From NCBI GenBank assembly GCA_016786485.1, contig JAEUWD010000002.1:1-64000 (forward strand): a stretch of 64,000 bases of DNA. The letters run 5' to 3'. Numbering within the stretch: the first letter of the stretch is position 1; every line of letters begins with the position of its first letter. The translations under genes were made by a program, and so were the position numbers. Shown here in pieces: positions 22,213-60,771 of the stretch. A model generated the notes under the pieces. That model was not told the DNA's origin, searched no databases, and saw only the letters and a program-made list of their open reading frames with translations. This DNA comes from Bacteriovoracaceae bacterium. GTDB taxonomy: Bacteria > Bdellovibrionota > Bacteriovoracia > Bacteriovoracales > Bacteriovoracaceae.

Positions 22213-22230
22213 TTTTTTGTTTTTTAAGAC

Positions 22231-22258
22231 GACCCATCAGCAATTTAACTGATGGGTC
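22231..22258. terminator. Terminator between converging copper operons
   Basis: GACCCATCAG (22231-22240) and CTGATGGGTC (22249-22258) form a perfect 10-bp stem with a short loop, followed by TTTAG on the plus strand. It lies 18 bp after the DUF3347-like gene and 9 bp from the stop of the opposite ATPase gene, so it may serve both. Confidence 0.75.
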
Positions 22259-22267
22259 TTTAGTTCC

Positions 22268-24634: not shown

Positions 24635-24649
24635 TGTTGAACCTCTCTA

Positions 24650-37240: not shown

Positions 37241-37737
37241 CCTCTGAGTCTTTCAGACTCTTCTATTTCATTAAGAAAAGAATCCACTTCGATCTTTTCA
37301 TCAATCAAAATGTCATATAGTTCAGCTGGAATCTGGTTCATCAATATTTTTCTTACTGGTATTTGGGATGTGATTTGACCTAACCAATAGATCAGTCTAT
37401 TTGAAGTCTTATCGACATACCAAAAATAAACTGCTTTTTCTGAAGAGCTTTCTTTACTAAGATTCTGTTCACAGATCGTTAGAGCCTTAAGTCTATCAGC
37501 TCTTTCTTGGCCAATGAGTTTTATCGCTTCGTCTTTGTCTTTCACAATAACAAGTAATTCACCACTATAATCACGGTACTGTTCTCTTGAAGTATTTATC
37601 ATTGTAATGACTGTTTCATGGATCGCTCCATACCCCTCTTTTGGCTGAACTCTACCTTGTTCAAGATTTTGAACCATCAAATTTATGTTATGGAACTTTC
37701 CAGTAGTATTATGTTTGAATTTTTCCATTGAGATCAT
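37237..37737 (-). CDS. Unrecognised 166-residue protein of the signalling operon
   Basis: A soluble alpha/beta protein with GELLVIVKDKDEAIKLIG (about 59-76) and a conserved-looking VYFWYVDKTSNRLIYWLGQI stretch (about 101-120). GGAG lies eight bases before the ATG. The gene overlaps both neighbours (NtrC-type regulator upstream, HExxH protein downstream). No family is recognised. Its place between regulator and hydrolase suggests it works with the latter. Confidence 0.55.
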   Translation of the reverse strand: MISMEKFKHNTTGKFHNINLMVQNLEQGRVQPKEGYGAIHETVITMINTSREQYRDYSGELLVIVKDKDEAIKLIGQERADRLKALTICEQNLSKESSSEKAVYFWYVDKTSNRLIYWLGQITSQIPVRKILMNQIPAELYDILIDEKIEVDSFLNEIEESERLRG

Positions 37738-39117: not shown

Positions 39118-39155
39118 CTTTCGCTGCGAAAGCCAGAATACTTTCTGCTCGAAAG
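39118..39155. promoter_or_regulatory. Paired upstream activator sites of the conjugation operon
   Basis: CTTTCGCTGCGAAAG (39118-39132) and CTTTCTGCTCGAAAG (39141-39155) share CTTTC-N5-GAAAG with centres 23 bp apart. They lie 131 and 108 bp before the GG of the -24 box at 39256. The same pair recurs at 58981-59017. They are probable binding sites of the adjacent NtrC-type regulator and lie 23 bp from its own start codon. Confidence 0.7.
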
Positions 39156-39253
39156 CGTTTTAGTACACTACAAAGACTGTGTAAAGCCCCATTATTTACA
39201 CTAATCCATTGAAATTTTTACATTCTCTTCAAAAAAAGTATCACTTCGCGAAC

Positions 39254-39270
39254 TTGGCCTCAGGCCTGCT
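39254..39270 (+). promoter_or_regulatory. Sigma-54 (-24/-12) promoter of the conjugation operon
   Basis: TTGGCCT...CTGCT has GG (39256-39257) and GC (39268-39269) separated by exactly 10 bases, as sigma-54 requires. It lies 34 bp before the receiver gene that opens the tra operon. Confidence 0.6.
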
Positions 39271-39303
39271 TTAAGAGAAATCAACGACACAAAGGAGTCA
39301 GCA

Positions 39304-39873
39304 ATGTTTGAAATAGAAAAAAACAGAATTCAAGTAGAAGTGATGACCAAGATGGATGAAGTTAAAGCCTGCCAGGCCAAAGAAAATAATAGCAAGGGCT
39401 TTCTTTCTAAATTTCTAAAACCATTTGCCGAGAACCAACAACCAGAAACAGGCCTCAAGGTTTTGGTCTGTGAGGATGACAAACTTCAACGTCTTATTCT
39501 TAAAAAGTCTCTTGAGAAAAGAGGGATTGAAGCAATATTTTCGGAAACACCAGTCAGAGTTCTGAATCAAAATTATTTAAAAAATTTCGATTTTGTTATT
39601 ACAGACAATCGGATGCCATACATGACAGGTACTCAGTTCACAGAGTATGTGGAAGAGGAACTTAATCTTGAGCTCCCGATGTATATGTTAAGTGGCGATT
39701 CATACTTAAAACACGAACTTCCAATTACCAAGGTTCGCCGTGGTATTTTTGAAAAATTCGAAAAACTTGAAAAAGTTTTGGACGAGATTTTTGATGATTT
39801 CAAGAATTATAAAAAAGAGATTAAGCAGCGAGAAGAGTCATCTATAAACTTCAACTCGACTGTCTCAGCCTAA
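39304..39873 (+). CDS. Receiver-domain protein opening the conjugation operon
   Basis: This 189-residue protein has an N-terminal extension of about 50 residues, a receiver domain (about 51-150, LVCEDDKLQR, Asp101 in VITDNRMPYMTG) and a charged helical tail without a DNA-binding domain. AAGGAG lies seven bases before the ATG. It is the first gene behind the sigma-54 promoter and only a few bases from the transfer genes. It may feed back on the hybrid kinase or act as a phosphate sink or timing device for transfer. Confidence 0.8.
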   Translation: MFEIEKNRIQVEVMTKMDEVKACQAKENNSKGFLSKFLKPFAENQQPETGLKVLVCEDDKLQRLILKKSLEKRGIEAIFSETPVRVLNQNYLKNFDFVITDNRMPYMTGTQFTEYVEEELNLELPMYMLSGDSYLKHELPITKVRRGIFEKFEKLEKVLDEIFDDFKNYKKEIKQREESSINFNSTVSA

Positions 39874-39894
39874 TAGGTGAATAGGAACTCGGCT

Positions 39895-40665
39895 ATGAAA
39901 ATTTTAATTTTACTTCTGATCTCTATGGATGTTTTTGCAGCAACAGCAAATACTCTCTCAGGTAATAACCTCCTTCCCACACCTACAAAACAAGAGATTG
40001 AGAGGAGTGCTGAAAAAATTAAGATCCCATCAGGAGTGAAAATTTCAGATTCATGGCTCCCTTATCTTAACCCCGCCTTTGAAGAATTTTGGACAGAAGG
40101 CAATCATCGTCCTGATGCTGGCTTCGTTCTCTTTGCACGAAACCCATCAGTAGATAATGCTAAGCTCTGGCTTCTTCGTATGGAAACAAAGGCAAAGCAT
40201 CTTGAAGTGATGTTTGATTCTATAGCTAAAGCCCAACAGGAACTTATTAAGTCTGGGATTTTGAAAGACAGATATGGAGTTTTAGCAAAGGCAAAATCAC
40301 TTCCTACTCCAGCAATAAAACAAACTTTGAACAAGGAGGGCATGGCGGAAATAGAAATTTTTTTCTTATTTAGCTCGTCATGCTCTCACTGTAAAAAATT
40401 GGCCTCTACTCTTAAAGGTTTTTCAAATGTAAGTCCCCTCCAGGTTGATGAGACAAAAAGTCTCTTTCACTTTGAGGGGCTTCCCTCAAGCGAGTTGGCT
40501 ACAGATAGTACAAAGAATGAGTATCTAGCCTCAGGAGAAGTCCCTGTACTGGTACTGCATGACCCAAAAACAAAAACTGTAAATATTCTAAAAGGGAATA
40601 GGCCCCAAGAAGAAATTCTCCTTGCCATGGCATCCCTTATTAACAACCGAGGAGAAAATAAATGA
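39895..40665 (+). CDS. TraF/TrbC-like thioredoxin-fold conjugation protein
   Basis: The ATG at 39895 gives 256 residues with a signal peptide (MKILILLLISMDVFAATANT); an upstream GTG (39877) is also open. The C-terminal part has a thioredoxin-like FFLFSSSCSHCKKLASTL with a CxxC pair and a cis-Pro-like EVPVLVL. Proteins of this kind (TraF, TrbC of F-type systems) act in the periplasm in disulfide formation or pilus assembly. It overlaps the pilin-like gene that follows (ATGA). Confidence 0.7.
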   Translation: MKILILLLISMDVFAATANTLSGNNLLPTPTKQEIERSAEKIKIPSGVKISDSWLPYLNPAFEEFWTEGNHRPDAGFVLFARNPSVDNAKLWLLRMETKAKHLEVMFDSIAKAQQELIKSGILKDRYGVLAKAKSLPTPAIKQTLNKEGMAEIEIFFLFSSSCSHCKKLASTLKGFSNVSPLQVDETKSLFHFEGLPSSELATDSTKNEYLASGEVPVLVLHDPKTKTVNILKGNRPQEEILLAMASLINNRGENK

Positions 40666-40946
40666 GAGCAAGTTTAGCAACAATGATGCTTGTCATGTCT
40701 GAAAAATCTATTGCGTGGTCAGTTCCATTCTCACCCTCACCCGAGCTAACGAAGACAACAGATCACCAGGCAACCATTCAGTTTACTATGTGGGCATTAA
40801 AGGCATTTTGCATCACCGCTTGTATCGTTCTTCTTTTTGGAGCTTCAAAGAGCTTTACATCTGAGAACTACACCCAAGCGATACTCAGTTCTTTAGGAGC
40901 TGTTATCGCAGGGGGAGCAACAATCTACGCTCTCCCACTAAGTTAA
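40662..40946 (+). CDS. Pilin-like two-span membrane protein
   Basis: This 94-residue protein has two hydrophobic helices (about 46-64 and 73-92), the second reading AILSSLGAVIAGGATIYALP, a layout close to VirB2/TraA pilins. GGAG precedes the ATG. It is followed by a second protein of similar layout, so one may be the pilin and the other a paralogue or minor subunit. Confidence 0.6.
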   Translation: MRASLATMMLVMSEKSIAWSVPFSPSPELTKTTDHQATIQFTMWALKAFCITACIVLLFGASKSFTSENYTQAILSSLGAVIAGGATIYALPLS

Positions 40947-40981
40947 TTTCTAACTTAGATCACTTCATTTAGGAGGCTTTT

Positions 40982-41332
40982 ATGATGGGTATGGCCCAGA
41001 AATGGTATTGGTATATCTTTTTTTCTCTCTTCTCTCTTTTTCTTTTTGATCAAGGAACGGCTCATGCACAGACTTGTTCTGGTCAATCTTCAATGACAAG
41101 AGCCTGCATCCAAAATCCTGAAGGATTACTTGCAGGAAATGAAAAAGCAACCAAAGCCGTCACCATGGCGAACTGGCTTCTCAGTGCAGTCGCCCTTGGG
41201 GCAACAATCGTTTTCTTAATTAAAGGCAGCAAAAAACTTAGTGACGATGACTACATCGGAAGTGCTGGGCCCTTTATGGGTGCTCTTGTAAGTGGACTCA
41301 CTATTTATCTAGCTGGCTCAATAGCCCTTTAA
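40982..41332 (+). CDS. TraA/VirB2-like pilin
   Basis: This 116-residue protein has a signal peptide (cleavage near TAHAQT), then a mature part of about 85 residues with two hydrophobic helices separated by a charged turn (KGSKKLSDDDYIGS), the standard conjugative pilin topology. AGGAGG lies upstream. It sits directly before the TraL-like gene, the usual pilin position in F-type clusters. Confidence 0.7.
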   Translation: MMGMAQKWYWYIFFSLFSLFLFDQGTAHAQTCSGQSSMTRACIQNPEGLLAGNEKATKAVTMANWLLSAVALGATIVFLIKGSKKLSDDDYIGSAGPFMGALVSGLTIYLAGSIAL

Positions 41333-41339
41333 GGAAAAT

Positions 41340-41657
41340 ATGTACGATTATTCAAAAAGTGAAATTCATAAAATTGAGAATGTAGAACATGAGATTCATA
41401 TCTTAGGTGTAAAAGTCCCTGCGATGCCCTGGTGTATCTATATCTTCCTTGGCTTTCTCATCATCAATCCCTTTCTCGCTTTCCTTGTGACCTTTGCCTT
41501 TATTGGAATTGTCAGGAAGTTTTATTTTGCTGAAAAGGCAGGAACACCCATCGAGTACCAAGGGTGGTTTATTAAACTTTCTAACTCTCTTCCTCTAATC
41601 AAAGATCTTTTCCCTTCTCTGGATCATCTAAGTCAATCGGAGGTTTATCGTGATTAA
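41340..41657 (+). CDS. traL: TraL-like conjugation protein
   Basis: A short protein of 105 residues with a hydrophobic hairpin (about 30-58, CIYIFLGFLIINPFLAFLVT). Size and position between the pilin and TraE match TraL (VirB3-like) of F-type systems. It overlaps the TraE gene by 8 bp. AAGGAA precedes the start. Confidence 0.65.
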   Translation: MYDYSKSEIHKIENVEHEIHILGVKVPAMPWCIYIFLGFLIINPFLAFLVTFAFIGIVRKFYFAEKAGTPIEYQGWFIKLSNSLPLIKDLFPSLDHLSQSEVYRD

Positions 41658-42405
41658 ATCTATTAAAGGATATTTTGATAAACTTATCCTTTCTCCTGCC
41701 ACGAAGTCAGGCTCATGGCTGGATCAAAATCTAGGCCTTAAGGCAGAAAATCATCTTCTGCGTTCAATTCTCATATTAGTCATAATGGTTATGATCACAA
41801 ATGCGATTACATCTATCACTTTTGGATTCCAGCTCATGAAAGGGGTGAACTCCCAAAAACTTGTTCTCGTCCCTGGAATCCATCGGAAACTTGTTATCCC
41901 TGCTGAAGCCTATCTGTCAGATACCTACATCAGAGCCGTTTCAAAACGAGTCGTTGAGCTTCTTGAGCAGTGGACTTATGAGAGCATCGAGGACTCTTAT
42001 CAGGAGTTGTTCAAAGAATATTATGATCATGGCCTGACCCAACTCACAAAGGCCAACCTCATGGCTTCAAATTTCGTTCAAAAGATCATGGAGCACAAGA
42101 TGGTCAGCACTTTCCAGTTTGACTGGAAAAGAAGTGAATTTCGTTGGTGTGAACAGATTCAACGTGCTTGTGCCATCGTGATTGGAAAAAGAAGACTCTA
42201 TATCAATAACAATGAACCATTTGCAGAGAAAGAAGTTGCTTACCTCATCATCTCAAGCGGCGTTTATCCAGATGAAAATAATCCCTTCGCTGTTCGTCTG
42301 ACAAGACTCATCGTCGATGACTCAAGTGAATCACCTTATATGAATATTAAGGCCCAATTTGATGCCGCTTTATCAGGAGTTTTACCAGATGCGAACAAAA
42401 AATAG
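41650..42405 (+). CDS. traE: TraE-like (VirB8-type) conjugation protein
   Basis: This 251-residue protein has one N-terminal membrane helix (about 38-60) and a periplasmic NTF2-like domain, with LVPGIHRKLVIPAEAYLSDT resembling TraE. The GTG start has GGAGG eight bases upstream. It forms part of the inner-membrane bridge of the secretion channel. Its 3' end overlaps the TraK-like gene. Confidence 0.75.
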   Translation: MIKSIKGYFDKLILSPATKSGSWLDQNLGLKAENHLLRSILILVIMVMITNAITSITFGFQLMKGVNSQKLVLVPGIHRKLVIPAEAYLSDTYIRAVSKRVVELLEQWTYESIEDSYQELFKEYYDHGLTQLTKANLMASNFVQKIMEHKMVSTFQFDWKRSEFRWCEQIQRACAIVIGKRRLYINNNEPFAEKEVAYLIISSGVYPDENNPFAVRLTRLIVDDSSESPYMNIKAQFDAALSGVLPDANKK

Positions 42406-43177
42406 TTTCATCACACTGATCTTTATGTGTCTCACTATTAAGGTCATGGCCTTTGAACAGGTTCATTATGGCGACGGAGCAAAAGATGTTGTTGTAAATT
42501 CTCAAGAGCCATCACTTTTGATGTTTCCTTCCCCACCAATTGCCAGAGTATGCCATCCTTCGGGTGTTGTTGATTTTTTCCCAATTGAGGAAAGTGGGAA
42601 TGAAATGAATCCGACTCTTAGTTCAGTAGAATGGAACTTGAACCAGAGTAAAACGATAAGTGATAGCACCGAAAGGATGCTTAAACTTCGTCCCTACCAA
42701 GATTCGCAAGTAACACTTTGTGACATCAAACTTGCTAATAGTGAAACAGTTACCCTCAGATTTAAAACTTCTTCACTTATCAAAAGACCCTCTATTGAAT
42801 TTGTGAATGTTTTCTCGAATCAAGCTAAAAACATCAAGAAGTACGATAATGATTCCCTTGAGATCTTCCAGAAACTGCTTTCAGGAGGTGAACTATTCAA
42901 CTTCTACGATATGACGACTTCAAAAGATGACCCCATCTTAAAAACGACAGTCCTTGCCAAATACGCGGTTACATATATTGGAACAGATCGGGAAAAATAT
43001 AAAGTCTGGAAGGTTAGAGTCTCTCCTAAAGCTAAGGCCATAACTGAGTCCAAGCTGAAGAATGTTAAATTAAATCAGATTCATTTTTCAGCTTGGAAAA
43101 AGGGGAAGGAACTTTATCTCTTCATCTTGAGTTCAAATGACATTTCAACAGAAGAACTTATGGAGAAACTACCATGA
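42389..43177 (+). CDS. traK: TraK-like (VirB9-type) secretin-like protein
   Basis: The ATG at 42389 (AGGAG upstream) gives 262 residues with a signal peptide (SFITLIFMCLTIKVMAFEQ). The beta-rich periplasmic domain, with VTLRFKTSS and the C-terminal YKVWKVRVSPKAKA, fits TraK/VirB9, the outer-membrane-core component. It sits between TraE and TraB as in F. An upstream ATG at 42359 would lose the signal peptide. Confidence 0.65.
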   Translation: MRTKNSFITLIFMCLTIKVMAFEQVHYGDGAKDVVVNSQEPSLLMFPSPPIARVCHPSGVVDFFPIEESGNEMNPTLSSVEWNLNQSKTISDSTERMLKLRPYQDSQVTLCDIKLANSETVTLRFKTSSLIKRPSIEFVNVFSNQAKNIKKYDNDSLEIFQKLLSGGELFNFYDMTTSKDDPILKTTVLAKYAVTYIGTDREKYKVWKVRVSPKAKAITESKLKNVKLNQIHFSAWKKGKELYLFILSSNDISTEELMEKLP

Positions 43178-44292
43178 GAAGTTTGATCATTATTGGATTC
43201 CATCTCATTGCTTTAAATGTATTGGCCCAGACATCTCCTAATGGTGATTCTATCTCATCAGATCAGGTCACTCCCAAACTCATGAAAGATGAAGAGAAGA
43301 GTATCCCAGAAGATCGAGTCCTGCCCAATATCTCTTTAAAAGATCATTTCCTTAAAAAGAGCATTGAGGAATCTCGCAAGATTCTTGAAAATCCCTCTGC
43401 TCCTATCAAAGAAAATCATAAAACTGAACCTCAACAAGAAATGATTTCTGAGGTCGATTCTATTTCTCCACCATCTATTGATGAAGTCCATGTCATCTCA
43501 GCGGCTCCGCAGTTTCCTAGCTATGAAGACCAGAATGACGTTAGGATTTTTAAAAGAAACCTTCGCTATGTTCCTGGTAACGAAATCCCTAAAACGATCA
43601 CTCTTCCAAGCGGCTCGTCTGCTCTTGCAACCCTCTTAAGCGGTGTTGAAATATCCTCTGAGGAGAAATCTATTGATGTTCGACTAGACTATGCTTTCTT
43701 AGGGCCAAACAAAGCGATTGTTGAACTTACTGGCTGTATTGCATGGGTAAAGCTCTCAGGAGACTACAGCACTGAACGTCTTTTTGGTAAGGCCTACTCA
43801 ATCTCTTGCCGTTCACCTAATGGAAAAACCTTTGATCTTCCAATCATGGCCCATGTGAAAGATGAAAGAGATGAATACCTTGGCATTAAAGGCAAGCTCA
43901 TTGCCAATGGAAAACTTGCAGCAGCAGCATTGTCTTTTCTTAGAGATGGAACAACTGCCTTTGGCGAAGCCATGGCAAAGTCTCAAACCAATACCGAGGT
44001 CGTGGGTGGTGGAATATCTGGAACAACCGCCACGGGGACGAATGTTTCTGGCAATAAAGACAGCTACATAATCGGTCAGACTGCCGCAGGAGCTTCTGGA
44101 AAATTTCTTAATTGGTGGGTGGATTATTATACCAAACTTTCACCAACTATTGCCGTCCCACCAGGAACGAAAATCTACCTAAGTGTAGAAGGCGAAGTTC
44201 AAATTCCTGAAATATTTTTTGTCAATAATCAATCATCAACTCGAATCAATACTAACGATTCGATCAAACTTCAGCACAAGGAGCTACCATGA
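43174..44292 (+). CDS. traB: TraB-like (VirB10-type) core scaffold protein
   Basis: This 372-residue protein has a signal-like N-terminus, a proline-rich periplasmic linker (about 60-130), and a C-terminal beta-barrel domain with LPSGSSALATLLSGVEI, VELTGCIAWVKLSGDY and PPGTKIYLSVEGEV, the typical TraB/VirB10 features. It spans the envelope and links inner- and outer-membrane parts of the channel. A glycine/threonine-rich loop lies at about 275-300. Confidence 0.8.
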   Translation: MRSLIIIGFHLIALNVLAQTSPNGDSISSDQVTPKLMKDEEKSIPEDRVLPNISLKDHFLKKSIEESRKILENPSAPIKENHKTEPQQEMISEVDSISPPSIDEVHVISAAPQFPSYEDQNDVRIFKRNLRYVPGNEIPKTITLPSGSSALATLLSGVEISSEEKSIDVRLDYAFLGPNKAIVELTGCIAWVKLSGDYSTERLFGKAYSISCRSPNGKTFDLPIMAHVKDERDEYLGIKGKLIANGKLAAAALSFLRDGTTAFGEAMAKSQTNTEVVGGGISGTTATGTNVSGNKDSYIIGQTAAGASGKFLNWWVDYYTKLSPTIAVPPGTKIYLSVEGEVQIPEIFFVNNQSSTRINTNDSIKLQHKELP

Positions 44293-45011
44293 AAACACTT
44301 ATTCTCTCATTATTTGTCCTATCAGCCTGCACGTCTCTTCCTAAAGGCGATCTTCAACTCAAAAAAATGATGCTTGATGATCAACCCCGTGAACCAAGAG
44401 GTGGAATTTCCTACGTCCATGCAGGAAGACCTCTTTATGTGGAAAGTACCTCTTATCCTTATCTGCTTCCAGACGGACATATCTCAATGGAAGGAAAACT
44501 TTTAGTCTATGTAGGCAGGGAAGAACTCTCTCTTAATGAACTACTCCCAACTCAAAAGGAAGAGGAGACACAAGAAAAGCAGATTACTCCCGAGATTAAA
44601 GAACCGTCGCCCTTTATTCGTGAAGTAGGCGGCCCCCGTCATGCCCAAGCCGAGTCCATTATTTTCCCAAAGACTCCAGGAACAGAAACCTTCGCTGACT
44701 TTCTTAAGCTCCAAGAGGCTTCGATTAAAGAGAAAGATAAACGATTTGTTAATCACTTCAAATGTGCAAGGCCGAAAATTACCCAAAATGGAAACTGTGA
44801 TCAACTTCAAGTCGAATTCGATCTGACTAAATGCTTTGGTTCTCCTTTTATCAAAACTGGCCATAAAGTGAGTTGCAACCAAGACGAGGCCCTATTTGGT
44901 GTGAGACTAAACAATGTCAGATACCGAGTTTCAACAATCCGTCCTCCATTGCCTGTTAAAGGGCAATGGAATCTTAAATCACAAATTCAAGTGACATTTT
45001 ATAAACCATAG
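44289..45011 (+). CDS. traV: TraV-like outer-membrane lipoprotein
   Basis: This 240-residue protein starts with a lipoprotein signal (LFVLSACTSLPKG, lipobox LSAC). Two to three cysteines follow in the C-terminal part. Its position after TraB and before the TraC ATPase matches TraV (VirB7-like). It is longer than F TraV (171). AAGGAG precedes the ATG, which overlaps the TraB stop. Confidence 0.65.
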   Translation: MKTLILSLFVLSACTSLPKGDLQLKKMMLDDQPREPRGGISYVHAGRPLYVESTSYPYLLPDGHISMEGKLLVYVGREELSLNELLPTQKEEETQEKQITPEIKEPSPFIREVGGPRHAQAESIIFPKTPGTETFADFLKLQEASIKEKDKRFVNHFKCARPKITQNGNCDQLQVEFDLTKCFGSPFIKTGHKVSCNQDEALFGVRLNNVRYRVSTIRPPLPVKGQWNLKSQIQVTFYKP

Positions 45012-45015
45012 GAAA

Positions 45016-47604
45016 ATGAATATGCTTACTGAGACACTTCAAAAATTTAATCTTTCATCATTCAAAACATCCAAAAATTATCTTAAAGCTTCTGAGGATC
45101 TTCCTGATAGCTTTTCAGAAAAGCATATCGAGCTTCGCGATTTTTCACCTGACAATGTCGTCATTCTGAAAAATGGTGATTTAGGTGTCATTTATGAAAT
45201 TAACGGTGTCTATGATGAAATCCTAGACCAAGAAGGTCTAATAGAAAAACTCCATTCATTCATGAAGGGATTCAGAAGTGTCGGGACTGGTATTCCTTCG
45301 CATTTAAGCCTTCGCAATACCACTATTCAACTTATACACAAACAGCGGGAGATAAAAACTCCCCCTCAAAAACATCACTTTAGCGATACAAACGTTGGAA
45401 GGATTCTTCAGGAAGAGGAAGAAGAACTTTTTAAACGTGGATTAGTGAGAAGAAACTTTTTTATCACGATTCGTTACTCCCCTGAAATTAAGACTAAAAA
45501 AAATTCTGACTTCCTCAGCAGTCTAATCAATCCTTTAAGATCAAGTTTTATAAGATCCCAAAATGATCATTTAGATGAGTTCTTAAAGATTTATGAAACT
45601 TTCAGTAATGAACTTACAAACTTTGAACGTCATTTCCCAATTGGTTTTGCTTTAAAAAGGCTCACTCGCCTTGAGTCTCTGAAAGTAATTCAAAATATGC
45701 TTTTTGCTGGCGAAGATAAATTTCTCTTTGATGGTGAAGATTCCATCGAAAAAACACTCTATTCTCCTGCTTATGAGGACAAAGGAAGCCTTCTCACTTC
45801 CCCACAATCAGAAAAGTCAATTTGCTCTTATCGCCTTGAACAACTTCCAAAGGGTTATTCTTTTGGCAGATTCCGTCACTTCATAGATTCCATTCCCTAT
45901 AAAAACTTCGATCTTGTTTGGATTTTTTCTCACGGAAGCAAAGAAGTCACAAAAGACCTTATTGCACGAGAAACTTTCTATGGAAGAAAGAAAACCACTG
46001 ATGTTGAGTTTCAAGAATTTGTGTCTTTTAGAAGCAATATTGACCCTCAACATCCTCACGGCTCTCAATCAATTAGACTCCTTATTTATAATCCTGCACA
46101 AGATAAAGAGGGTCTTCTTGAATCTCTTGCTCAAGACTATATTGGAGCAAGACTCGTCAAAGAGAGTCAAATTCAAACTCATTTGTTTGTTACGTCACTC
46201 CCTCTGAATTGTAGGGCCGAAGCGAACAAACTAAAGGGTATCTCACGCAAGATCAGGCTAGAGAACGCTCTAGCCTTCTTGCCTCTTTACCAAGGGCCAG
46301 AGGACTCCCACGGAATCCGTTACTATGCTTCACGAAATTGGACTCCTACCAGAGTTGACTATTTTGCTGGTGAGGGAAATAAAATCACTTCTGTTTTGGG
46401 AATGTCCCGTGGTGGTAAATCCGTCCTTACGAATAACCTGATTTTAGAATTTATTGAAAAGAATCCTGAAGGTATTGTCCGAATCATTGACGTTAAAACG
46501 TCTTATCTCAAGCTTTGTGACCTCCTTGGTGGAAAAATCATTCAGTTTTCAGAAGAAAAACTGAAAGAAAGCTGCTACTCACCATTTGCCTTGGGGGAAA
46601 ACTATGACATGGACGATATTGAAGCGATTTTCCTTCTTATTTCCACTGCCATTATCCAAAAGAATCCTGGTATCAGATTCTCAGCTGTACATACAGAATT
46701 ATTGAGAGAAGCCTTAAAGATTGCCTATAACTCAAATCTAACAACCAAAACTAAATTTGGAAAAACTGAATCAGCACCTCATCCTATCTGGGATGATATT
46801 CTTGCATCACTTCCTCAGGCTGTAACGACTCTGACAAGTTCTGGTGTTCAAGGAGCCGAACAAGCGAATAAAGACATTGCTCTTTGGTCAGTAAATCTTT
46901 ATCAAACAGGACAGTTCGGATTTATTTTCAATCGCTATGAAAATACATCTGAACAAAGTCATGACAAGAAGATTCTTGTTTATGATCTTGATGGAAATAA
47001 TGATGAGGTACTTCGCCAAATTTCAGCAATGATGGCGTTTGTTAAGATTACGCGTGATCTTGCAAAACTTCCAACTTCAGTCCCTAAGCTCATCATCTTT
47101 GAAGAGTTTGGAATCTTACTTAATGGAGATGATGAAGCACAAAAGCTCAACGAGCAAAATATCCGTCTGATTGTAAAGACAACTGCCAAGCTCAATGCTC
47201 AACCCATCGCTATTACCAACAATGTAGATGATTTTGCTGTCAAACCCGCTGGAGTCTCTTTTTGGGAACTTTCGACCATCAAGATTTTTCTTCCTCTAGG
47301 TTCAATGTTTGAGAACGCTAAGAAAGCATGGTCAGGTCAGTTCAATGAAGCCTTCTGGCAAATTCTTAAATCCCTTAAAAAAGAAGTTGAGTATAAGCGA
47401 AGCTCAATCCTTGTTTACTCAGAGAATGATACTGCTCCCTATATTGGGTCTTTTTACCTCATCCTTTCAAGTTTCATTGATGCTCTGACAACTTCATCAG
47501 GTTCTCAAATGAATCTATACAAAGGCCTTAAACAGAAAGGCCTATCTCCCTCTGAGTGCCTAAGTTACATGAAAGAATTTCACCCATTTGGAAAAGGACT
47601 TTAA
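45016..47604 (+). CDS. traC: TraC-like (VirB4-type) conjugation ATPase
   Basis: This 862-residue cytoplasmic ATPase has an N-terminal TraC-type domain (about 30-440) and a C-terminal RecA-like domain with the Walker A variant VLGMSRGGKSVLTNN (about 455-468) and Walker B LIIFEEFG. VRIIDVKTSYLKL follows Walker A as in VirB4/TraC. It powers pilus assembly and substrate transfer. The gene has AGGA upstream and follows TraV by a few bases. Confidence 0.85.
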   Translation: MNMLTETLQKFNLSSFKTSKNYLKASEDLPDSFSEKHIELRDFSPDNVVILKNGDLGVIYEINGVYDEILDQEGLIEKLHSFMKGFRSVGTGIPSHLSLRNTTIQLIHKQREIKTPPQKHHFSDTNVGRILQEEEEELFKRGLVRRNFFITIRYSPEIKTKKNSDFLSSLINPLRSSFIRSQNDHLDEFLKIYETFSNELTNFERHFPIGFALKRLTRLESLKVIQNMLFAGEDKFLFDGEDSIEKTLYSPAYEDKGSLLTSPQSEKSICSYRLEQLPKGYSFGRFRHFIDSIPYKNFDLVWIFSHGSKEVTKDLIARETFYGRKKTTDVEFQEFVSFRSNIDPQHPHGSQSIRLLIYNPAQDKEGLLESLAQDYIGARLVKESQIQTHLFVTSLPLNCRAEANKLKGISRKIRLENALAFLPLYQGPEDSHGIRYYASRNWTPTRVDYFAGEGNKITSVLGMSRGGKSVLTNNLILEFIEKNPEGIVRIIDVKTSYLKLCDLLGGKIIQFSEEKLKESCYSPFALGENYDMDDIEAIFLLISTAIIQKNPGIRFSAVHTELLREALKIAYNSNLTTKTKFGKTESAPHPIWDDILASLPQAVTTLTSSGVQGAEQANKDIALWSVNLYQTGQFGFIFNRYENTSEQSHDKKILVYDLDGNNDEVLRQISAMMAFVKITRDLAKLPTSVPKLIIFEEFGILLNGDDEAQKLNEQNIRLIVKTTAKLNAQPIAITNNVDDFAVKPAGVSFWELSTIKIFLPLGSMFENAKKAWSGQFNEAFWQILKSLKKEVEYKRSSILVYSENDTAPYIGSFYLILSSFIDALTTSSGSQMNLYKGLKQKGLSPSECLSYMKEFHPFGKGL

Positions 47605-47605
47605 A

Positions 47606-49072: not shown

Positions 49073-49073
49073 A

Positions 49074-52533: not shown

Positions 52534-53744
52534 AAAACTCGTATCTCACAATCGCTAAAGCGAATACTTCTGATGATGTGATCGAAAAGAAAGATTTTTT
52601 CTCTATGACTTGGAAGAAAATTTTTGCTGAGGCCAATGAGAATAAAGCCAGCGACATTCACGTTCAACAGTTTGAAAATTTCATCAGAGTAAAACTAAGA
52701 ATCCTTGGAGACTTGTGTATATCTCAAGAAATTACTGAAACAGAAGAAGTCCGAACAACGCTTATAAACCGACTTAAGGCCATCTGTCACTTTGAACTCA
52801 ATATCAATGATGAAGCTCAGGACAGATCATTTAGTCTTAAAGTCACTAACAGTCGCTATCGCGGAGTGGTGACTCCAGGAATATTTGGAGAGAATTTTGT
52901 CTTCCGTATTATCCGAGAAGAAGAACTTCCGACAATCAAGAATTGCCTCCTTCCTCCGCAGATAGAAAAAGACCTCCTCTATGCCATAAATCGCAAGCAA
53001 GGTTTTATCTGTATCACAGGCCCAACAGGGTCAGGAAAAAGTACGACTCTTCAAGCAACCCTAATGGAGATTGCAAGAATTAAGAAAAATGTCATCACCA
53101 TTGAAGATCCCGTAGAGAGAATTATACCTGATACTGTTCAGCAGCAGATTTCTCACAAGCTCACTTGGTCTAAGGCCATTAAAGCGGCCATGAGACAAGA
53201 TCCTGATGTGATTTTGATTGGAGAGATTCGAGATAGAGAATCGGCTTCCCTCGCTCTTGAAGCCGCTCAAACAGGCCATCTCGTTTTATCTACCCTTCAT
53301 ACCAATGATGTATCAGGAATTGTTGATCGACTCATAGGACTAGGAGTTGATCGAAAATTGATTGCAGACAATCTTCTTTTTATTTCTGCTCAAAGACTTG
53401 TTCAAAAAATTTGTTCCTCGTGCAGACAACCGAACAAACTTGGAGGTTACGATCAAGGTCATGGCTGCTCTCAATGTGAAACCTCAAAGATTAAAGGAAT
53501 CATCGGGAGACAACCTATAGTTGAATACTCACTTCACCCAGACCCAAAAAGTATTCTCAATTTCAACAAGCAGGAATTTAAGCAGACTCAATTAAAAACA
53601 AGTCTCTATTCAGAAGCCTTAAGACTTTCACAAGAAGGGATTATTTCTACTGATGAAGCAAATCAATGGGAAGAAAAAGACTTATGGGAAACAAAACAAA
53701 ACCCACGCCAAAATCAAGAAGCTGGACAACTAAGCATACAGTAA
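52524..53744 (+). CDS. GspE/PilB-type secretion ATPase in the conjugation operon
   Basis: This 406-residue ATPase has an N-terminal NDI-type domain (ASDIHVQQFENFIRVKLRI), Walker A ITGPTGSGKSTTL (about 175-187), the Asp box ITIEDPVERI, Walker B DPDVILIGEIRD and the His box TGHLVLSTLHTND. A tetracysteine motif follows (CSSCRQP...CSQCET). These are marks of type II secretion/type IV pilus ATPases. F-type transfer systems normally have no such ATPase. The GTG start has GGAGG upstream and overlaps the TraU-like gene. Confidence 0.85.
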   Translation: MVVKNSYLTIAKANTSDDVIEKKDFFSMTWKKIFAEANENKASDIHVQQFENFIRVKLRILGDLCISQEITETEEVRTTLINRLKAICHFELNINDEAQDRSFSLKVTNSRYRGVVTPGIFGENFVFRIIREEELPTIKNCLLPPQIEKDLLYAINRKQGFICITGPTGSGKSTTLQATLMEIARIKKNVITIEDPVERIIPDTVQQQISHKLTWSKAIKAAMRQDPDVILIGEIRDRESASLALEAAQTGHLVLSTLHTNDVSGIVDRLIGLGVDRKLIADNLLFISAQRLVQKICSSCRQPNKLGGYDQGHGCSQCETSKIKGIIGRQPIVEYSLHPDPKSILNFNKQEFKQTQLKTSLYSEALRLSQEGIISTDEANQWEEKDLWETKQNPRQNQEAGQLSIQ

Positions 53745-56338
53745 TCTTCTCATTACTCATTGCTATCATTTGTCTTATCTATAAAAATCCTTTTTTAGGA
53801 AAGGAATATTTATCTCTTATTTATAATTGCCCACTCCAGACCCTATGGAACACCATTCTCATTTACATAGCGGTTTATGCGTTCATTAAAGTCTGGGTTC
53901 TCCCTGTTTGGAGATTCATTTTTGCCGACACTCAAAAACTTGGACAGAAAATTGAGTGGTATAACGAAAACTTTAAACATCTCACTCCTGACACAAAAGA
54001 ATTATTCATACAAAGATGGAGTATTATTCTAGTTCTAAGTCTTTTCTTATATTTTCTAAGCCTTCTTCCATTCACCCTATTTCAGAAATACTTTTTGAGT
54101 TTTTCCACTCCGTACTCTTGGTCTCAAGAGGCTATACATATCCGCTATACGGTTTCTCTTATATGGATAAAAGCTCTAAAACATCTTTCTCTTTTAACGA
54201 TCTATTTTTGGATAATTTCACTCTTTGAAGGTCGCTCTCGTATCATTGCCAGGCTCTTAACAAAGTATGATTCCTACAAAGACTCAATTGCATGGAAAGT
54301 TCCTCTACCTGAAATTCCTTGGGATAAATATTCCCCCACATTAGAACTATGCCTCTTTAGTCAATTCATCACCAAGGTGGGAGAACCTGCGACTCAAGAA
54401 ACATCTTACGAAAAATGGATTCCAAGAAAAGAGGCCGGACTGGTCACAAATACTCTTGGTATTGCCCCAACAGGAGGTGGTAAAACATCGTCGTTAATTA
54501 AACCGACCATTGAGCAAGCTATCCTCTGGCAAAATGATAGACCAGAATTAAAAGCAAGTGTGGCCGTTTACGATCCGAAGGGAGAACTTACCGAATATGC
54601 TGTAGAAATAGCGAAAAAGGCCAACAGGGAGAATGATCTTTGTGTTCTCTCACTTAAAAGCCTCAACAACATCAACCCTCTTCAAGTGAATAATATCTGG
54701 GATGGTCAAACATCTTGGCGAATATCTGGATGGATTATTTCGGCGTGGCAGAACTTCCAAGGAAAATCCTCACCTGAACCATATTGGGAAAATCAAAACT
54801 ACCTACTTGTAAGAAATCTACTCGTTCTTCTCTACCTTGATAAAGGAAATAACGTAGGGATGTATGACATCTCTAAGATGCTAGGCCCGTCTTCAACTGG
54901 TTGTTTCATAAAGCAAGACAAAACAAAAACTCTGACAGAGTTTGGAACATGGGTCTTTAAGGCCTATATCATGACTCTCTTGGCGAAGTCAGAAGAAGAA
55001 GCAATCTCCGACCTCATTGATGAATATGAACTTAAACCCATAAAACTTTCTCAAATGACATCTGAAATTTTTAAAGACACTGAAAAAAGACTAGAGCAAT
55101 GGAAGGAAACCTATCAATCCCAAAGGAAGATGTACCATCAAAATACAAGCATTGAGCTAAGAGAGATTTTAAATAAAGGCGAACAAGCTAAAGGCCAACA
55201 AGACCTTTTGAAATGTCGTCATGATTATCTCGAAAAATTAAAAGAATTGGTCAATAAAGACATGGCAGAAAAGTTTAAAGATAAAAAGATGGAACCACAA
55301 GATTTTGCCAAGACCCATCTCATTCAGTCAGCTCAAGAATTAAAAGAAAAACTTGAGGCCGATCTTAAAGAAGAAATCCCAAGAGAGACTGCCTTCCAAA
55401 TAATTAAAGATGCTTGTGAGTGGTTGATCAAAACTTGGAGCCAAATGCCTCCTGAGAATAGAGCAAACATCGTTTCTAACATGGAACCTTTTCTCAAGAT
55501 GTTCGAGACTCCAGAAGTGCGACGATCATTGTCTCCTTCCACTCCCCAGATTAATTTCGATCAGATCATAACTGAAGGTTCTATCGTTATTCCAAGTTTT
55601 CCAGGAATTGAAATCGGTGATTCTCTTGCTGATGCCATTGTCACTCTCATAAAGGCAAGATGGCAGTATGCAGTTCTTTCTAACCCTCAATCGAATAGAG
55701 TGAAATTTCAGATTGTGGATGAAGCTCAGAGGGTGATTACTTTCGGAGAAGGTCGAAACGCAGGAGATTTTGAGTATCTTGAACTTTCACGAAGTTTTGG
55801 CGGCATCACTCTTATGACAACTCAATCCATTTCTGCTTTAAGGGCCAAAGCACCACGCGAAGCAGATTGGGAGAAAATTCATGGGGTCATAAGATCTATT
55901 ATTTGCTTTGCCACAAACGACAGTAAAACCATTCGATTCATTCAGGACATTGCAGGGAAAAGGGTAAAAGAAAGAGTCTCTAAGACCGTTCTCGAAGGGG
56001 CCAATGCCCCAGAGCTTGATATGATTTCAGAGAAGTATAAAGGTGATTCATCTCTAAGCGTTTCTTTTACGACATCTCAGTCATTAGAAGACTTTATTCA
56101 ATCAAGCGACATTCAAGGAGCAAAGGCCTTTACTGGAATAGCTATCCTCTTTGATGGACTTAAATCTGAGATTATCAAGGTTGCCTTCAAACCCACCTTC
56201 TGGCCGGACAGGAGAGATAAGTGGGCCCTTATGGAAAAACTTCTCTTTCAAAGCAACAACAGGGACTCTAAAAAATATCCTCTACAAACTAATGCTATTG
56301 AAAATTTGTTCCCTCAACACGAACCAAAGGAGGCCTAG
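53684..56338 (+). CDS. VirD4/TraD-type coupling protein
   Basis: This protein of about 884 residues has N-terminal membrane helices (about 20-40, 55-75, 110-190) and a cytoplasmic ATPase with LGIAPTGGGKTSSL (Walker A) and KFQIVDEAQRVITFGEG plus the LMTTQSISAL motif near the C-terminus. A charged helical insertion (about 430-580) lies between the two. It links the relaxase-DNA complex to the channel. An ATG at 53666 is open as well. The gene overlaps the GspE-type gene by 61 bp. Confidence 0.85.
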   Translation: MGNKTKPTPKSRSWTTKHTVIFSLLIAIICLIYKNPFLGKEYLSLIYNCPLQTLWNTILIYIAVYAFIKVWVLPVWRFIFADTQKLGQKIEWYNENFKHLTPDTKELFIQRWSIILVLSLFLYFLSLLPFTLFQKYFLSFSTPYSWSQEAIHIRYTVSLIWIKALKHLSLLTIYFWIISLFEGRSRIIARLLTKYDSYKDSIAWKVPLPEIPWDKYSPTLELCLFSQFITKVGEPATQETSYEKWIPRKEAGLVTNTLGIAPTGGGKTSSLIKPTIEQAILWQNDRPELKASVAVYDPKGELTEYAVEIAKKANRENDLCVLSLKSLNNINPLQVNNIWDGQTSWRISGWIISAWQNFQGKSSPEPYWENQNYLLVRNLLVLLYLDKGNNVGMYDISKMLGPSSTGCFIKQDKTKTLTEFGTWVFKAYIMTLLAKSEEEAISDLIDEYELKPIKLSQMTSEIFKDTEKRLEQWKETYQSQRKMYHQNTSIELREILNKGEQAKGQQDLLKCRHDYLEKLKELVNKDMAEKFKDKKMEPQDFAKTHLIQSAQELKEKLEADLKEEIPRETAFQIIKDACEWLIKTWSQMPPENRANIVSNMEPFLKMFETPEVRRSLSPSTPQINFDQIITEGSIVIPSFPGIEIGDSLADAIVTLIKARWQYAVLSNPQSNRVKFQIVDEAQRVITFGEGRNAGDFEYLELSRSFGGITLMTTQSISALRAKAPREADWEKIHGVIRSIICFATNDSKTIRFIQDIAGKRVKERVSKTVLEGANAPELDMISEKYKGDSSLSVSFTTSQSLEDFIQSSDIQGAKAFTGIAILFDGLKSEIIKVAFKPTFWPDRRDKWALMEKLLFQSNNRDSKKYPLQTNAIENLFPQHEPKEA

Positions 56339-56341
56339 TAG

Positions 56342-58657
56342 ATGAACCTACAAAACATCAATAGACAGATTCTTAAAGTAGAACAAACAAATTCTCAAGA
56401 TAACAATCTTGAACAAAAACTAGCAAGAGAGTTATTCAAGTCACAGCATGAAAAAAAGCTTAGACCTCAAGAAAAAGCTGACCTTCTAACGCTAAGATTG
56501 TCTCCGGATGCCGAAAAACACTTTTCTCCTGAACGAATCAAACATCTCCGCACCCTAGAACATCTCGTAACCAATGAAGAGCTGCTAAGTTCCATTATTC
56601 CAAACAAACACTATTTTTTTCTTTCTGAACTACGAGAGAAAAAACTTCGCTCAGAAGAATCCATTCTCGATTGGGCAAAAGGATACGGTCTAAATAAGAA
56701 GGATGTTCAGAATCTAAGAGAGCAAGGATTTGTTGATTATCTTGACGACTATGAAGAATATTCCAAAGAAAATCTAATAAGAAGAGGATTTCTTAGTTCT
56801 CTAACTGAATCTCAAAAGTCACTTCTTAAATCTCTATCAGGGACAGAAGCAATATTGGATGCTCAAAATCCCGAATTAATAAAACTAAAGAACAAAGGAC
56901 ATCTGGATATTCTGACACAAAGTGAGCAGAGCTTCTTAAAAAATGGAGCAAACATTGAAAAACTCAGCAACTATAATCTTTCTCTTCCTGATTATTTCCG
57001 ACTAAAAAAACGTATTGAGTTCCATACAAAAGGAGAAGTGAAATTTGTCGATGATTCAGAACTTACCATTAAAGAAAAAGAATTTATCACAAGCTTCATG
57101 GCGACTGGTTCTAAAGAAAGTATAGAGTTCAGCAAAGACCATGCTCAAAAACTCATTCAGAGAGTTGAAAAGTTCACAGGTAAAGAGATTAAAAATATTG
57201 ATTACACTGTTTCTGTCAATCTTAGTGATATTCACGATATTACCGCAAAAGTTTTTTACCGTGAAAGTTCTCCTATTCTCTCTTTTCGAGAAAAGCTCAT
57301 CCTTGATTATGATCTTTATACTTCATCAAAAGATGCCTCTATCTATCTGAGAGGACAGGCCAATGAACATCTTTCAAAAAGAGAATTTGATCGCTATACC
57401 GAAATCCTGGCATCGAAAGACCTTTCTTTCCTTAAATTTATACCAAACAACGCTCAATTAGCCTTTTTGCGAAGAATTCATGGTCGAAATGCTGACCAAG
57501 AACTTGCTATGAAAATAGGAAAAGATGATTTTGGCCTGGATAAAGATGCCGTTTACCATATCTTATTAAACCAATTTACTTCCACTCAAAATGGTTTTTA
57601 TAAAAACGAATGGATCGAGCCAAAATCAATTGAAAATGCAAGAATTTGGCAGGCAACCCTGGAACGATACTCTTTTGAAGATTCTATAAAAATTCTTTCA
57701 GCACTTAAAATTGAAGAACCAAGCTTATCATTAAAACTACTGTTAAAAGATAATTATCTCATCTATCCACAACAAAAGATTGAAGACTTCAATTTATTTC
57801 TCAAGGTTCACTTCAAAGAACCTTTGTCGATGTCTGAAACTGCTAGGCTCACTCACCTAAGAGAGAATGGCGTTCACCCTGAACTTAACTACTCCTTCTT
57901 ATCAGAAGACCATGCTTCGTGGAATATGAAAGCGGCAAAGAAGCAGGCCTTCATTCAGTATTTTACGAAAAGATACCAGGTAGATATAAAAGTCTTAGAT
58001 TTTATCAATAAATTTAAACAGGTCACTCACGAACAACTTCTTAAGCTTGGGTTATCTGAAGGTGAAATTGATAGATACGTTCGAGGGATTGCCAATGATG
58101 ACATTCCATTTGGCGGAAAGCTTCTGAATCGTCATACACTTAATACTCCTAAAGGAAATATCATTTACTATTCTATTCAACATCAAGGAATAGTCTCTGG
58201 CAGGAGCCTCCTTGAAACTCGGATAGGAAAAGAATTTATTGCTCAAAGGCCTCAACAGCGTCAGGATCTTCTTTTCCATGACCTCAAGGTTGTTGATTGT
58301 GTCCTTCTTGTCAAAAAAGAACTTGAAGAGAAAGGCTATAAAATTCTCGAAGTGAAAAATGAATCTTCTCAATATTCAGATGCAAAAGCTGGAAAAGATA
58401 ATAACTGGAGAAAAGATGGGCCAAGTTTTATGGATGCTGTTCTGATTGTAGAAGAACCCATTGCTGAAGCTCTTTCTATCTCAGGAGGAGGTACAAGCAC
58501 AATTGCAGTCGAATATGGAAATTACACGAATGAAAGGATGATGAGTAAAATTGAAAACTCTAACTTTGATCAAGCTTTTGTTTTCTCTAACCAGACCTTT
58601 CAACAGAAGTATTCCAATCTCAACATAACAAAAAATGTTATTTTCAGGTCAATTTGA
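56342..58657 (+). CDS. Putative relaxase with a Replic_Relax/MOBC-like C-terminus
   Basis: This 771-residue soluble protein has a long helical N-terminal part with repeated leucine-rich segments (about 20-480). A winged-helix-like section follows (about 535-625, VLDFINKFKQVTHEQLLKLG). The C-terminus has HDLKVVDCVLLVKKELEEKG, then SFMDAVLIVEE and IAVEYGNYT (about 640-730), the pattern of the replication-relaxation family (CloDF13 MobC) with a restriction-nuclease-like core (D...E-x). GGAGG precedes the ATG. No classical relaxase is seen in the window, so this is the best candidate to nick oriT. Confidence 0.6.
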   Translation: MNLQNINRQILKVEQTNSQDNNLEQKLARELFKSQHEKKLRPQEKADLLTLRLSPDAEKHFSPERIKHLRTLEHLVTNEELLSSIIPNKHYFFLSELREKKLRSEESILDWAKGYGLNKKDVQNLREQGFVDYLDDYEEYSKENLIRRGFLSSLTESQKSLLKSLSGTEAILDAQNPELIKLKNKGHLDILTQSEQSFLKNGANIEKLSNYNLSLPDYFRLKKRIEFHTKGEVKFVDDSELTIKEKEFITSFMATGSKESIEFSKDHAQKLIQRVEKFTGKEIKNIDYTVSVNLSDIHDITAKVFYRESSPILSFREKLILDYDLYTSSKDASIYLRGQANEHLSKREFDRYTEILASKDLSFLKFIPNNAQLAFLRRIHGRNADQELAMKIGKDDFGLDKDAVYHILLNQFTSTQNGFYKNEWIEPKSIENARIWQATLERYSFEDSIKILSALKIEEPSLSLKLLLKDNYLIYPQQKIEDFNLFLKVHFKEPLSMSETARLTHLRENGVHPELNYSFLSEDHASWNMKAAKKQAFIQYFTKRYQVDIKVLDFINKFKQVTHEQLLKLGLSEGEIDRYVRGIANDDIPFGGKLLNRHTLNTPKGNIIYYSIQHQGIVSGRSLLETRIGKEFIAQRPQQRQDLLFHDLKVVDCVLLVKKELEEKGYKILEVKNESSQYSDAKAGKDNNWRKDGPSFMDAVLIVEEPIAEALSISGGGTSTIAVEYGNYTNERMMSKIENSNFDQAFVFSNQTFQQKYSNLNITKNVIFRSI

Positions 58658-58659
58658 AT

Positions 58660-58692
58660 TTGGGCCAGGTAGATCATCCTACTCTGGCCCAA
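58660..58692. terminator. Terminator at the end of the conjugation operon
   Basis: TTGGGCCAG (58660-58668) and CTGGCCCAA (58684-58692) form a strong stem with an inner GTAG/CTAC extension, followed by TTATTTTATT on the plus strand. It sits between two converging genes. Confidence 0.85.
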
Positions 58693-58697
58693 TTATT

Positions 58698-58958
58698 TTA
58701 TTGTTCAGTTGAATTACGTTTACGTCCTCGTCTAGCACCTTTCCCTGAAGCTAAAAACTCATTGAACCCTTCAACCTGTCCAGTAGCTTTCATAAGCTCC
58801 TCAAAAATATCTTCTTCGGCAATTAACTCATCCGTAGCCTTGTCTTTATTAATGAACTCCACAAGTTTAGAGAATTTTTCAAAATCTGCTAGGTAAACTT
58901 TGAAAGTTAATTCTTTGGGTTGATGTTTTGCTTTAAGCTCTAAAAAATTTAACTCCAT
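58698..58958 (-). CDS. Small basic-tailed protein beside the excision promoter
   Basis: This 86-residue acidic/helical protein (FKVYLADFEKFSKLVEFINK, EDIFEELMKATGQVEGF) ends in a basic tail (GKGARRGRKRNSTEQ). GGAG precedes the ATG. It is divergent from the excisionase-like gene, and the paired activator sites at 58981-59017 begin 23 bp from its start, just as the other pair lies 23 bp from the NtrC-type gene. A DNA-binding or modulator role is possible; no family is recognised. Confidence 0.5.
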   Translation of the reverse strand: MELNFLELKAKHQPKELTFKVYLADFEKFSKLVEFINKDKATDELIAEEDIFEELMKATGQVEGFNEFLASGKGARRGRKRNSTEQ

Positions 58959-58980
58959 CTTGTTTTCTCCTCTTCAAATA

Positions 58981-59017
58981 CTTTCTTTGCGAAAGTGTTA
59001 GTGTTTCGCATAGAAAG
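58981..59017. promoter_or_regulatory. Paired upstream activator sites of the excision/integration genes
   Basis: CTTTCTTTGCGAAAG (58981-58995) and GTTTCGCATAGAAAG (59003-59017, the inverted form with one mismatch) have centres 22 bp apart. They lie 135 and 113 bp before the GG of the -24 box at 59123. Sequence, spacing and distance match the pair at 39118-39155. Confidence 0.7.
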
Positions 59018-59120
59018 TTTGTTTTTTTACATTGCTACCCATTCTTTTCTTTTCAATTCATTTTTCATCTAATTTTTCATCACTTACAAACGCCTTTCCT
59101 TTCAGAAACTTACACGCTCA

Positions 59121-59137
59121 TTGGCATCTCCTTTGTA
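59121..59137 (+). promoter_or_regulatory. Sigma-54 (-24/-12) promoter of the excisionase-integrase genes
   Basis: TTGGCATCTCCTTTGTA has a good -24 box (TTGGCA) and a -12 box TTTGT, with GG and GT 10 bases apart (GT instead of GC). It lies about 50 bp before the excisionase-like start. Confidence 0.55.
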
Positions 59138-59187: not shown

Positions 59188-59421
59188 TTGGAAATGACAT
59201 TGCAACCAGAAGGCCAACAAGAAGAGTATTTAGACATCAATCAAGCAGCTCAATTTTTGAATGTGAAAGTTTCAAAAATAAGGAGAGAAGTTTTTCTTAA
59301 GAGAATTAAGCACTACAAGTTCGGGGCCTTGCTCCGATTCAAGAAAATCCATCTTGTCGAATGGGTAAACTCGCAATTTCAAGAAGCTAGAAACTCGGTG
59401 ACCAGGTATCAAATCCAGTAA
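59188..59421 (+). CDS. Excisionase-like MerR/HTH_17 DNA-binding protein
   Basis: The TTG at 59188 has AAGGAG five bases upstream (ATG 59194 is the alternative) and gives about 77 residues. EYLDINQAAQFLNVKVSKIR then REVFLKRIKHYKFGALLRF is the winged-helix pattern of excisionases. The frame is open further upstream, but that part overlaps the promoter and has no start signal. It precedes the integrase gene by about 45 bp and probably directs excision. Confidence 0.75.
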   Translation: MEMTLQPEGQQEEYLDINQAAQFLNVKVSKIRREVFLKRIKHYKFGALLRFKKIHLVEWVNSQFQEARNSVTRYQIQ

Positions 59422-60750: not shown

Positions 60751-60771
60751 AAAACTCTCACACTTTTATAA

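Follow-up and report, generated by a model that had tools for sequence, protein, structure and literature searches.

A Shared Operator Pair and -24/-12 Box Suggest Joint Control of Excision and Conjugation by an NtrC-Type Regulator in an Integrative Element of a Bacteriovoracaceae Bacterium

We analyzed a window of 64,000 nucleotides from a Bacteriovoracaceae bacterium (assembly GCA_016786485.1, contig JAEUWD010000002.1, positions 1 to 64,000) that carries a putative integrative and conjugative element (ICE). An F-type transfer operon (tra) and the excisionase and integrase genes (xis-int) of this element are each preceded by a pair of palindromic operators and a -24/-12 box of the sigma-54 type. 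We consider it very probable, judging from the conservation of these sites, that an NtrC-type regulator encoded by the element binds both operator pairs and activates the sigma-54 polymerase at both promoters.

Results

The two promoters have the same layout, at 39118-39270 and 58981-59137, as the original prediction had described (Table 1). The palindrome centers are 23 bp apart at tra and 22 bp apart at xis, and the distances from the proximal/distal operator center to the GG of the box are 108/131 bp and 113/135 bp, respectively. Four CTTTC-N5-GAAAG palindromes had been claimed; their positions and spacing hold, but the fourth has one mismatch. Of the two boxes, the one at tra stands as predicted, matching TGGCAC-N5-TTGCW with the GG and GC 12 bp apart, whereas the conserved one at xis departs from the consensus at -12. 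Pfam and profile matches agree that the first site precedes the conjugation operon and the second the excisionase-integrase genes. The activator gene that was said to lie between the sites does encode the receiver and activator domains of an NtrC-type protein, but it is located beside the first site, directly to its left and divergent from tra. The genome contains a single copy of rpoN (Sigma54_DBD, 1.4e-62, at C29:68243-68722).

The rarity of the operator pair was assessed by genome-wide pattern searches with reversed-pattern controls. A single CTTTC-N5-GAAAG is about as common as expected by chance (12 genomic places vs. 9 for the control). The pair is found in the 2.98 Mb genome at the tra and xis promoters only, and the scatter of random copies that would have spoken against the original prediction did not appear. 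Across roughly 0.4 Gb of sequence from 129 genomes of the order, a slightly narrower pair pattern, with a chance expectation of about 0.03 per genome, has four other matches; all four (L004-L007) are inside coding sequence, and we regard them as chance matches. Within each element only the tra and xis pairs have two or fewer mismatches, the next-best pairs having five. Pair and box are both present in all three integrase loci linked to the regulator, and the pair is present in none of 17 other integrase loci related to that of the window, several of which have a recognizable Xis. One high-scoring box was encountered among these 17, before the L093 integrase; it was rejected, because the last part of a reading frame contains it and no operator pair accompanies it.

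Taken singly, the boxes are weak in shuffling tests (p = 0.026 for the tra box in the window), and the case therefore rests on conservation. Related elements were sought through the TraC-like ATPase among 369 genomes of the phylum, which returned G115 and G114 (about 77%) and G119 (about 44%). G115 and G114, two genomes of another genus, carry a collinear element whose transfer genes (from 39877 onward) are 61-84% identical to those of the window, with 52% identity for the regulator, 81-82% for Xis and 59% for the integrase. Their intergenic regions differ from the window at many positions, with both promoters preserved. The tra box is near-perfect (GTGGCACAGGGCTTGCT), and the xis box is kept as TTGGCATC[TC]CCCTTGTA, among the best-conserved stretches of its intergenic region. 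The operators of these elements (in G115, TTCGTATCGAA/TTCGATACGAA at tra and TTCGCTACGAA/TTCGTTACGAA at xis) sharpen the motif to TTCGNNNCGAA. Their centers are 115/137 bp from the GG at tra and 114/134 bp at xis, and the proximal xis operator thus keeps a steady distance of 113-114 bp across elements. In the whole genomes of G114 and G115, pairs of TTCGNNNCGAA occur at the tra and xis promoters only, with no control matches; these two promoters had served to refine the motif, but nothing in that procedure dictated the absence of further sites across 2.6 and 3.5 Mb. Together with rpoN, these comparisons support the claim that one activator may serve both excision and conjugation.

Most of the transfer operon is collinear in G119 as well. 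The tra promoter of G119 has a CTGGCACACCCATTGCC box, 169 bp from the regulator start codon, and a palindrome of its own, TCACCGTTTACGGTGA. This locus, on C6 of G119 (L021, L022), combines a related transfer operon with a regulator of another clade and another palindrome.

Table 1. Coordinates of the promoter elements, genes and element end in the window.
Feature	Position	Strand	Evidence or remark
Hybrid histidine kinase, last gene of regulator operon, presumed cognate sensor	31493-33508	-	HATPase_c 4.5e-18
Periplasmic binding protein, presumed ligand-sensing partner	33505-34764	-	Peripla_BP_6 6.4e-5, under curated cut-off
AzlD, amino-acid exporter type	34614-34940	-	Pfam
AzlC, amino-acid exporter type	34921-35487	-	Pfam
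SDR oxidoreductase	35469-36230	-	Pfam
341-amino-acid protein, variable middle	36215-37240	-	Weak DUF6421 match
166-amino-acid protein adjoining regulator	37237-37737	-	Homologues after regulator in most cassettes
NtrC-type response regulator, presumed activator of both promoters	37737-39095	-	Receiver, AAA+, putative C-terminal helix-turn-helix (HTH) region
tra operator 1, CTTTCGCTGCGAAAG	39118-39132	.	Palindrome
tra operator 2, CTTTCTGCTCGAAAG	39141-39155	.	Palindrome
tra sigma-54 -24/-12 box, TTGGCCTCAGGCCTGCT	39254-39270	+	Aligns with GTGGCACAGGGCTTGCT in G114/G115
Stand-alone receiver-domain protein, first gene of tra operon	39304-39873	+	Response_reg 1.7e-11
F-type type IV secretion/transfer operon	39877-58657	+	TraF-, TraE-, TraB-, TraC-, PilT/VirB11-, VirD4-like
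Last tra-operon protein, 771 amino acids	56342-58657	+	Matches no known family; 72% identical in G115
86-amino-acid protein gene, divergent from xis	58698-58958	-	65% identical homologue in G114/G115
xis operator 1, CTTTCTTTGCGAAAG	58981-58995	.	Palindrome
xis operator 2, GTTTCGCATAGAAAG	59003-59017	.	Palindrome, 1 mismatch
xis-int sigma-54 -24/-12-like box, TTGGCATCTCCTTTGTA	59121-59137	+	Kept in G115/G114
Xis, excisionase-type HTH_17 protein	59194-59421	+	HTH_17 5.2e-8
Tyrosine integrase	59468-60652	+	Phage_integrase 3.3e-29
22-bp repeat TAGCCCAAATCCAGCCCAACGG, probable integrase arm-type site	60612-60633	+	Also at left end on contig C15
Right element end (attR region)	60765-60784	.	3' part of interrupted M3 peptidase gene

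The regulator has a receiver domain (Response_reg, 1.3e-12) with D50, S79 and K101 conserved and an AAA+ domain (Sigma54_activat, 7.3e-51). No Pfam HTH match was obtained for its C-terminus, but the regulator profile can be aligned with full-length NtrX and FleQ as far as their C-terminal regions; the profile also matches LuxO structures. An AlphaFold model computed from one sequence reached a pLDDT (predicted local distance difference test score) of 35 and was not used. The GAFTGA loop reads GAFTGA in G115 and L013, GAFSGA in G119 and GAYSGA in the window. GAFSGA is listed among the loop variants expected to keep activity (PMC4641369), and PspF tolerates the F-to-Y replacement (PMC2941729).

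Among the NtrC-type proteins of the phylum, the regulators of elements with a type IV secretion system (T4SS) form a distinct top-scoring group together with loci in genus g36, where the divergent genes are not transfer genes. Five of the eight g36 loci (L057, L059, L060, L061 and L062) keep the layout, with TTTC/GAAA-type sites about 20-50 bp upstream of the regulator start and an outward -24/-12 box 150-172 bp from that start; it is absent in L058 and L063, and in L056 the box is weak and further off. The layout was not found in the 19 lower-ranking NtrC-type loci that we checked (best score 12). That the arrangement of regulator, operators and box recurs beside genes unrelated to conjugation seems to indicate that the element recruited a host-type signaling module. 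In the maximum-likelihood tree the regulators of the window and of G115/G114 group together, whereas the G119 regulator is placed with L061 in another well-supported clade. Since the tra genes of G119 are nevertheless homologous to those of the window, the regulator seems, from the tree, to have been exchanged between elements while the design stayed. Further away, on an Elusimicrobia contig (L013; a metagenome-assembled genome from another phylum), T4SS genes of the TraC type are divergent from a related regulator gene, and the stretch between them contains a strong -24/-12 site, ATGGCACTCCGATTGCT. In the plasmid collection, the best regulator matches are only about 31%, for example in Manganitrophus plasmids without tra genes, and no TraC relative was found.

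Alternative explanations

Several observations weigh against control of both promoters by the regulator. At -12 the xis box reads GT where the consensus has GC, and alone it reaches a shuffle p of about 0.03-0.05 when scored in the relatives. A box overlapping the xis start (59188) scores higher; it is not conserved in the relatives, and we rejected it as the xis promoter. A sigma-70-like match (TTTACA-18-TACATT, 39195-39224) lies ahead of tra. The loop of the window regulator is a double variant. Because the elements of G114 and G115 are almost identical, the two genomes amount to a single independent comparison, and G119 informs on the tra side only, its xis-int genes being outside the contig stretch read. 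No relaxase family was recognized among the subset of proteins scanned, and the ability to conjugate is therefore judged from the T4SS and the coupling protein. Finally, we infer both binding by the regulator and dependence on rpoN from conserved sites and their geometry.

The weaker xis box and its marginal significance would fit an arrangement in which the regulator directly activates tra only, the xis site serves mainly the gene for the 86-amino-acid protein, and xis-int is transcribed from a sigma-70 or read-through promoter. However, the xis box is conserved and its distance from the proximal operator is maintained across elements, and we saw no sigma-70-like match upstream of xis-int. 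We consider this arrangement decidedly unlikely. Another protein, such as a repressor of 86 amino acids, could instead bind the palindromes and silence tra and xis, in which case the -24/-12 boxes would be incidental. The operators adjoin the gene for the 86-amino-acid protein, and some have perfect arms of 5-8 bp as in classical repressor sites. Yet a position 108-137 bp upstream of the box would be unusual for a repressor of these promoters, relatives of the regulator keep the layout of regulator, operator and box where neither this gene nor xis is present, and the other-clade regulator of G119 stands before a different palindrome; a repressor of this kind is very improbable. Chance association of unrelated palindromes with GG/GC dinucleotides can be dismissed, since, common as single palindromes and single boxes are in an AT-rich genome, the pair is unique and recurs exactly at the same two promoters of the relative in the whole-genome search of G114 and G115.

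The regulator operon and its sensor

The regulator is the first gene of an operon that runs from 39095 to 31493 with overlapping reading frames, in the order regulator, 166-amino-acid protein, 341-amino-acid protein, SDR, AzlC, AzlD, periplasmic binding protein and hybrid kinase. The kinase has two C-terminal receiver-like domains, and in an alignment with the kinases at the same operon position in G115, G114 and G119, H243 and the receiver aspartate are conserved. The open reading frame of the binding protein, inside which its true start lies, overlaps the start of the kinase; in G115 and G119, too, the gene ahead of the kinase encodes a binding protein. The 166-amino-acid family (alignment A3) has an invariant histidine in HxxxGKFxxI and an invariant HE. 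Searches of Pfam and PDB with this protein gave no match, and we offer only as a lead the possibility, suggested by these residues, that it is a histidine phosphotransferase.

The ends of the operon (the regulator on one side, binding protein and kinase on the other) are kept in G115 and G119, and the genes in the middle differ: cupin, EamA and SAH (S-adenosylhomocysteine)-hydrolase-like in G115; cupin, haem-oxygenase-like, amino-acid permease and GGCT-like (gamma-glutamyl cyclotransferase-like) in G119. The L056 cassette of genus g36 combines a G119-type middle (permease 76%) with a regulator from the broader clade of the window. Cassettes of an NtrC-type regulator, variable enzyme or transporter genes, and a binding protein with a hybrid kinase recur at 31493-39095 of the window and at L016, L021, L056, L060 and L067. 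Their binding proteins belong to different families depending on the locus (Peripla_BP_6, ABC_sub_bind and SBP_bac_5).

One could imagine that the operon is a self-contained chemical signaling cassette, in which the enzymes and exporter of the middle make and release a signal, the sensor reads it, and the regulator fires excision and transfer. To see the middle genes as makers of the signal is speculation, and we find the cassette interpretation doubtful; this includes its corollary that different elements would have different signal-making genes (SDR with AzlCD in the window, and the G115 and G119 sets). If true, it would place conjugation under partner- or kin-sensing control of a new class, with parts common to host cassettes that regulate other divergent genes.

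Transfer genes and element ends

The transfer operon matches TraC (TIGR02746, 1.8e-35), TraE, TraB, TraD/VirD4, TraF, TrbI, T2SSE and T4SS-DNA_transf. Its first gene encodes the stand-alone receiver protein, which is conserved in G114/G115 and possibly acts as a phosphate sink or in feedback on the kinase. The 771-amino-acid protein at its end is a candidate relaxase or processing protein.

The element interrupts an M3 peptidase gene, whose profile positions 3-205 are found at C15:7276-7872 and 213-455 at 60817-61533 of the window. The interruption comprises 60765-61545 of the window and G000:C15:~7267-8700 (L079); the left end, on this other contig, carries arm-type GCCCAAAT repeats. Because the M3 gene is split and the 22-bp repeat is common to both ends, the element probably covers C15:1-~7267 and C65:1-~60780. 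Its length would be 68 kb or more, provided that each of the two stretches is element DNA from end to end. A six-base CCCAGT core was rejected as the exact crossover, as the rejoined gene would be out of frame; by inspection, joining the left ...CCCAG to the right TGGTGCCC... would keep the frame. No tRNA target was found in the window. Transposase/integrase-like genes at 1947-4789, near the contig end, are a likely cause of the assembly break. Judging from translations, the window also contains metal-transporter cargo at 17421-25045 (two P-type ATPases, a MerR-type regulator and a small heavy-metal-associated protein); a P-type ATPase with 68% identity is also found at the G115 locus. A second integrase, 46% identical, is encoded elsewhere in the same genome (G000:C30:5289-6371).

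Discussion

An ICE must coordinate its excision with the building of the transfer machine, and a single activator with matching sites at both promoters would be a simple lock between the two. In the mechanism that we favor, the periplasmic binding protein and the hybrid kinase would respond to a small molecule by phosphorylating the NtrC-type regulator. Regulator dimers would occupy TTTCGNNNCGAAA-type operators, arranged in pairs with two helical turns between them, and form an activator 108-137 bp upstream of two sigma-54 promoters that remodels the sigma-54 RNA polymerase. With one promoter leading into the F-type transfer operon and the other into xis-int, excision and conjugation would be switched on together. 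Both the regulator gene and the gene for the 86-amino-acid protein begin 15-53 bp downstream of the same operators, counted to the start codon (30 and 52 bp for the latter gene), and for this reason the bound regulator probably also limits both genes; autoregulation of the regulator gene is likely on these distances. This reading would add conjugation and excision to the outputs of sigma-54, and it provides an operator motif and a handle on the inducing signal.

Most studied ICEs are controlled by repressors, the SOS response, peptides or acyl-homoserine lactones (AHLs). SetR-SetCD of SXT/R391 (repressor/SOS), RapI-PhrI-ImmR of ICEBs1 (peptide-phosphatase) and TraR-FseA of ICEMlSym (AHL) resemble the system described here in coordinating the control of excision and transfer, but we know of no sigma-54 promoters in these circuits. 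The contrast that the original prediction drew with known ICE controls holds for the SOS/repressor type. It is weakened by a two-component precedent in CTnDOT, and quorum-type input is possible, because the presumed sensor resembles a binding protein paired with a hybrid kinase, and its operon also contains variable enzyme and transporter genes.

In CTnDOT of Bacteroides, RteA/RteB controls excision and transfer through RteC, and Response_reg, Sigma54_activat and HTH_8 domains are among the key gene products of CTnDOT-type elements (PMC1976400, PMC10865816). Here, too, a two-component system carried by an integrated conjugative element would govern excision and transfer, so that this type of control is not new. 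What appears to be new is the direct control of both operons: RteB works via RteC and tetracycline is the inducer, whereas here an operator pair stands directly at both promoters, which makes an RteC-type intermediate unnecessary, the T4SS belongs to the F type, and sensing would fall to a binding protein with a hybrid kinase. In the literature searched, which took in few subscription papers, we met no description of sigma-54 directly controlling both operons.

The regulator shares with the bacterial enhancer-binding proteins of the NtrC family (NtrC1, NtrX, FlrC, ZraR) the receiver and AAA+ domains and presumably also the HTH region, the paired upstream dimer sites and the -24/-12 promoters; it differs in its GAYSGA loop and in its presumed targets, which are genes for conjugation and excision on a mobile element. 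The sensor side is reminiscent of LuxPQ-LuxU-LuxO in Vibrio, where a periplasmic binding protein and a hybrid kinase, LuxPQ (PMC5394107), act upstream of a sigma-54-dependent regulator of the NtrC type. In the element, however, the output would be tra and xis instead of small RNAs, the phosphotransferase is only putative, and enzyme and transporter genes form part of the operon.

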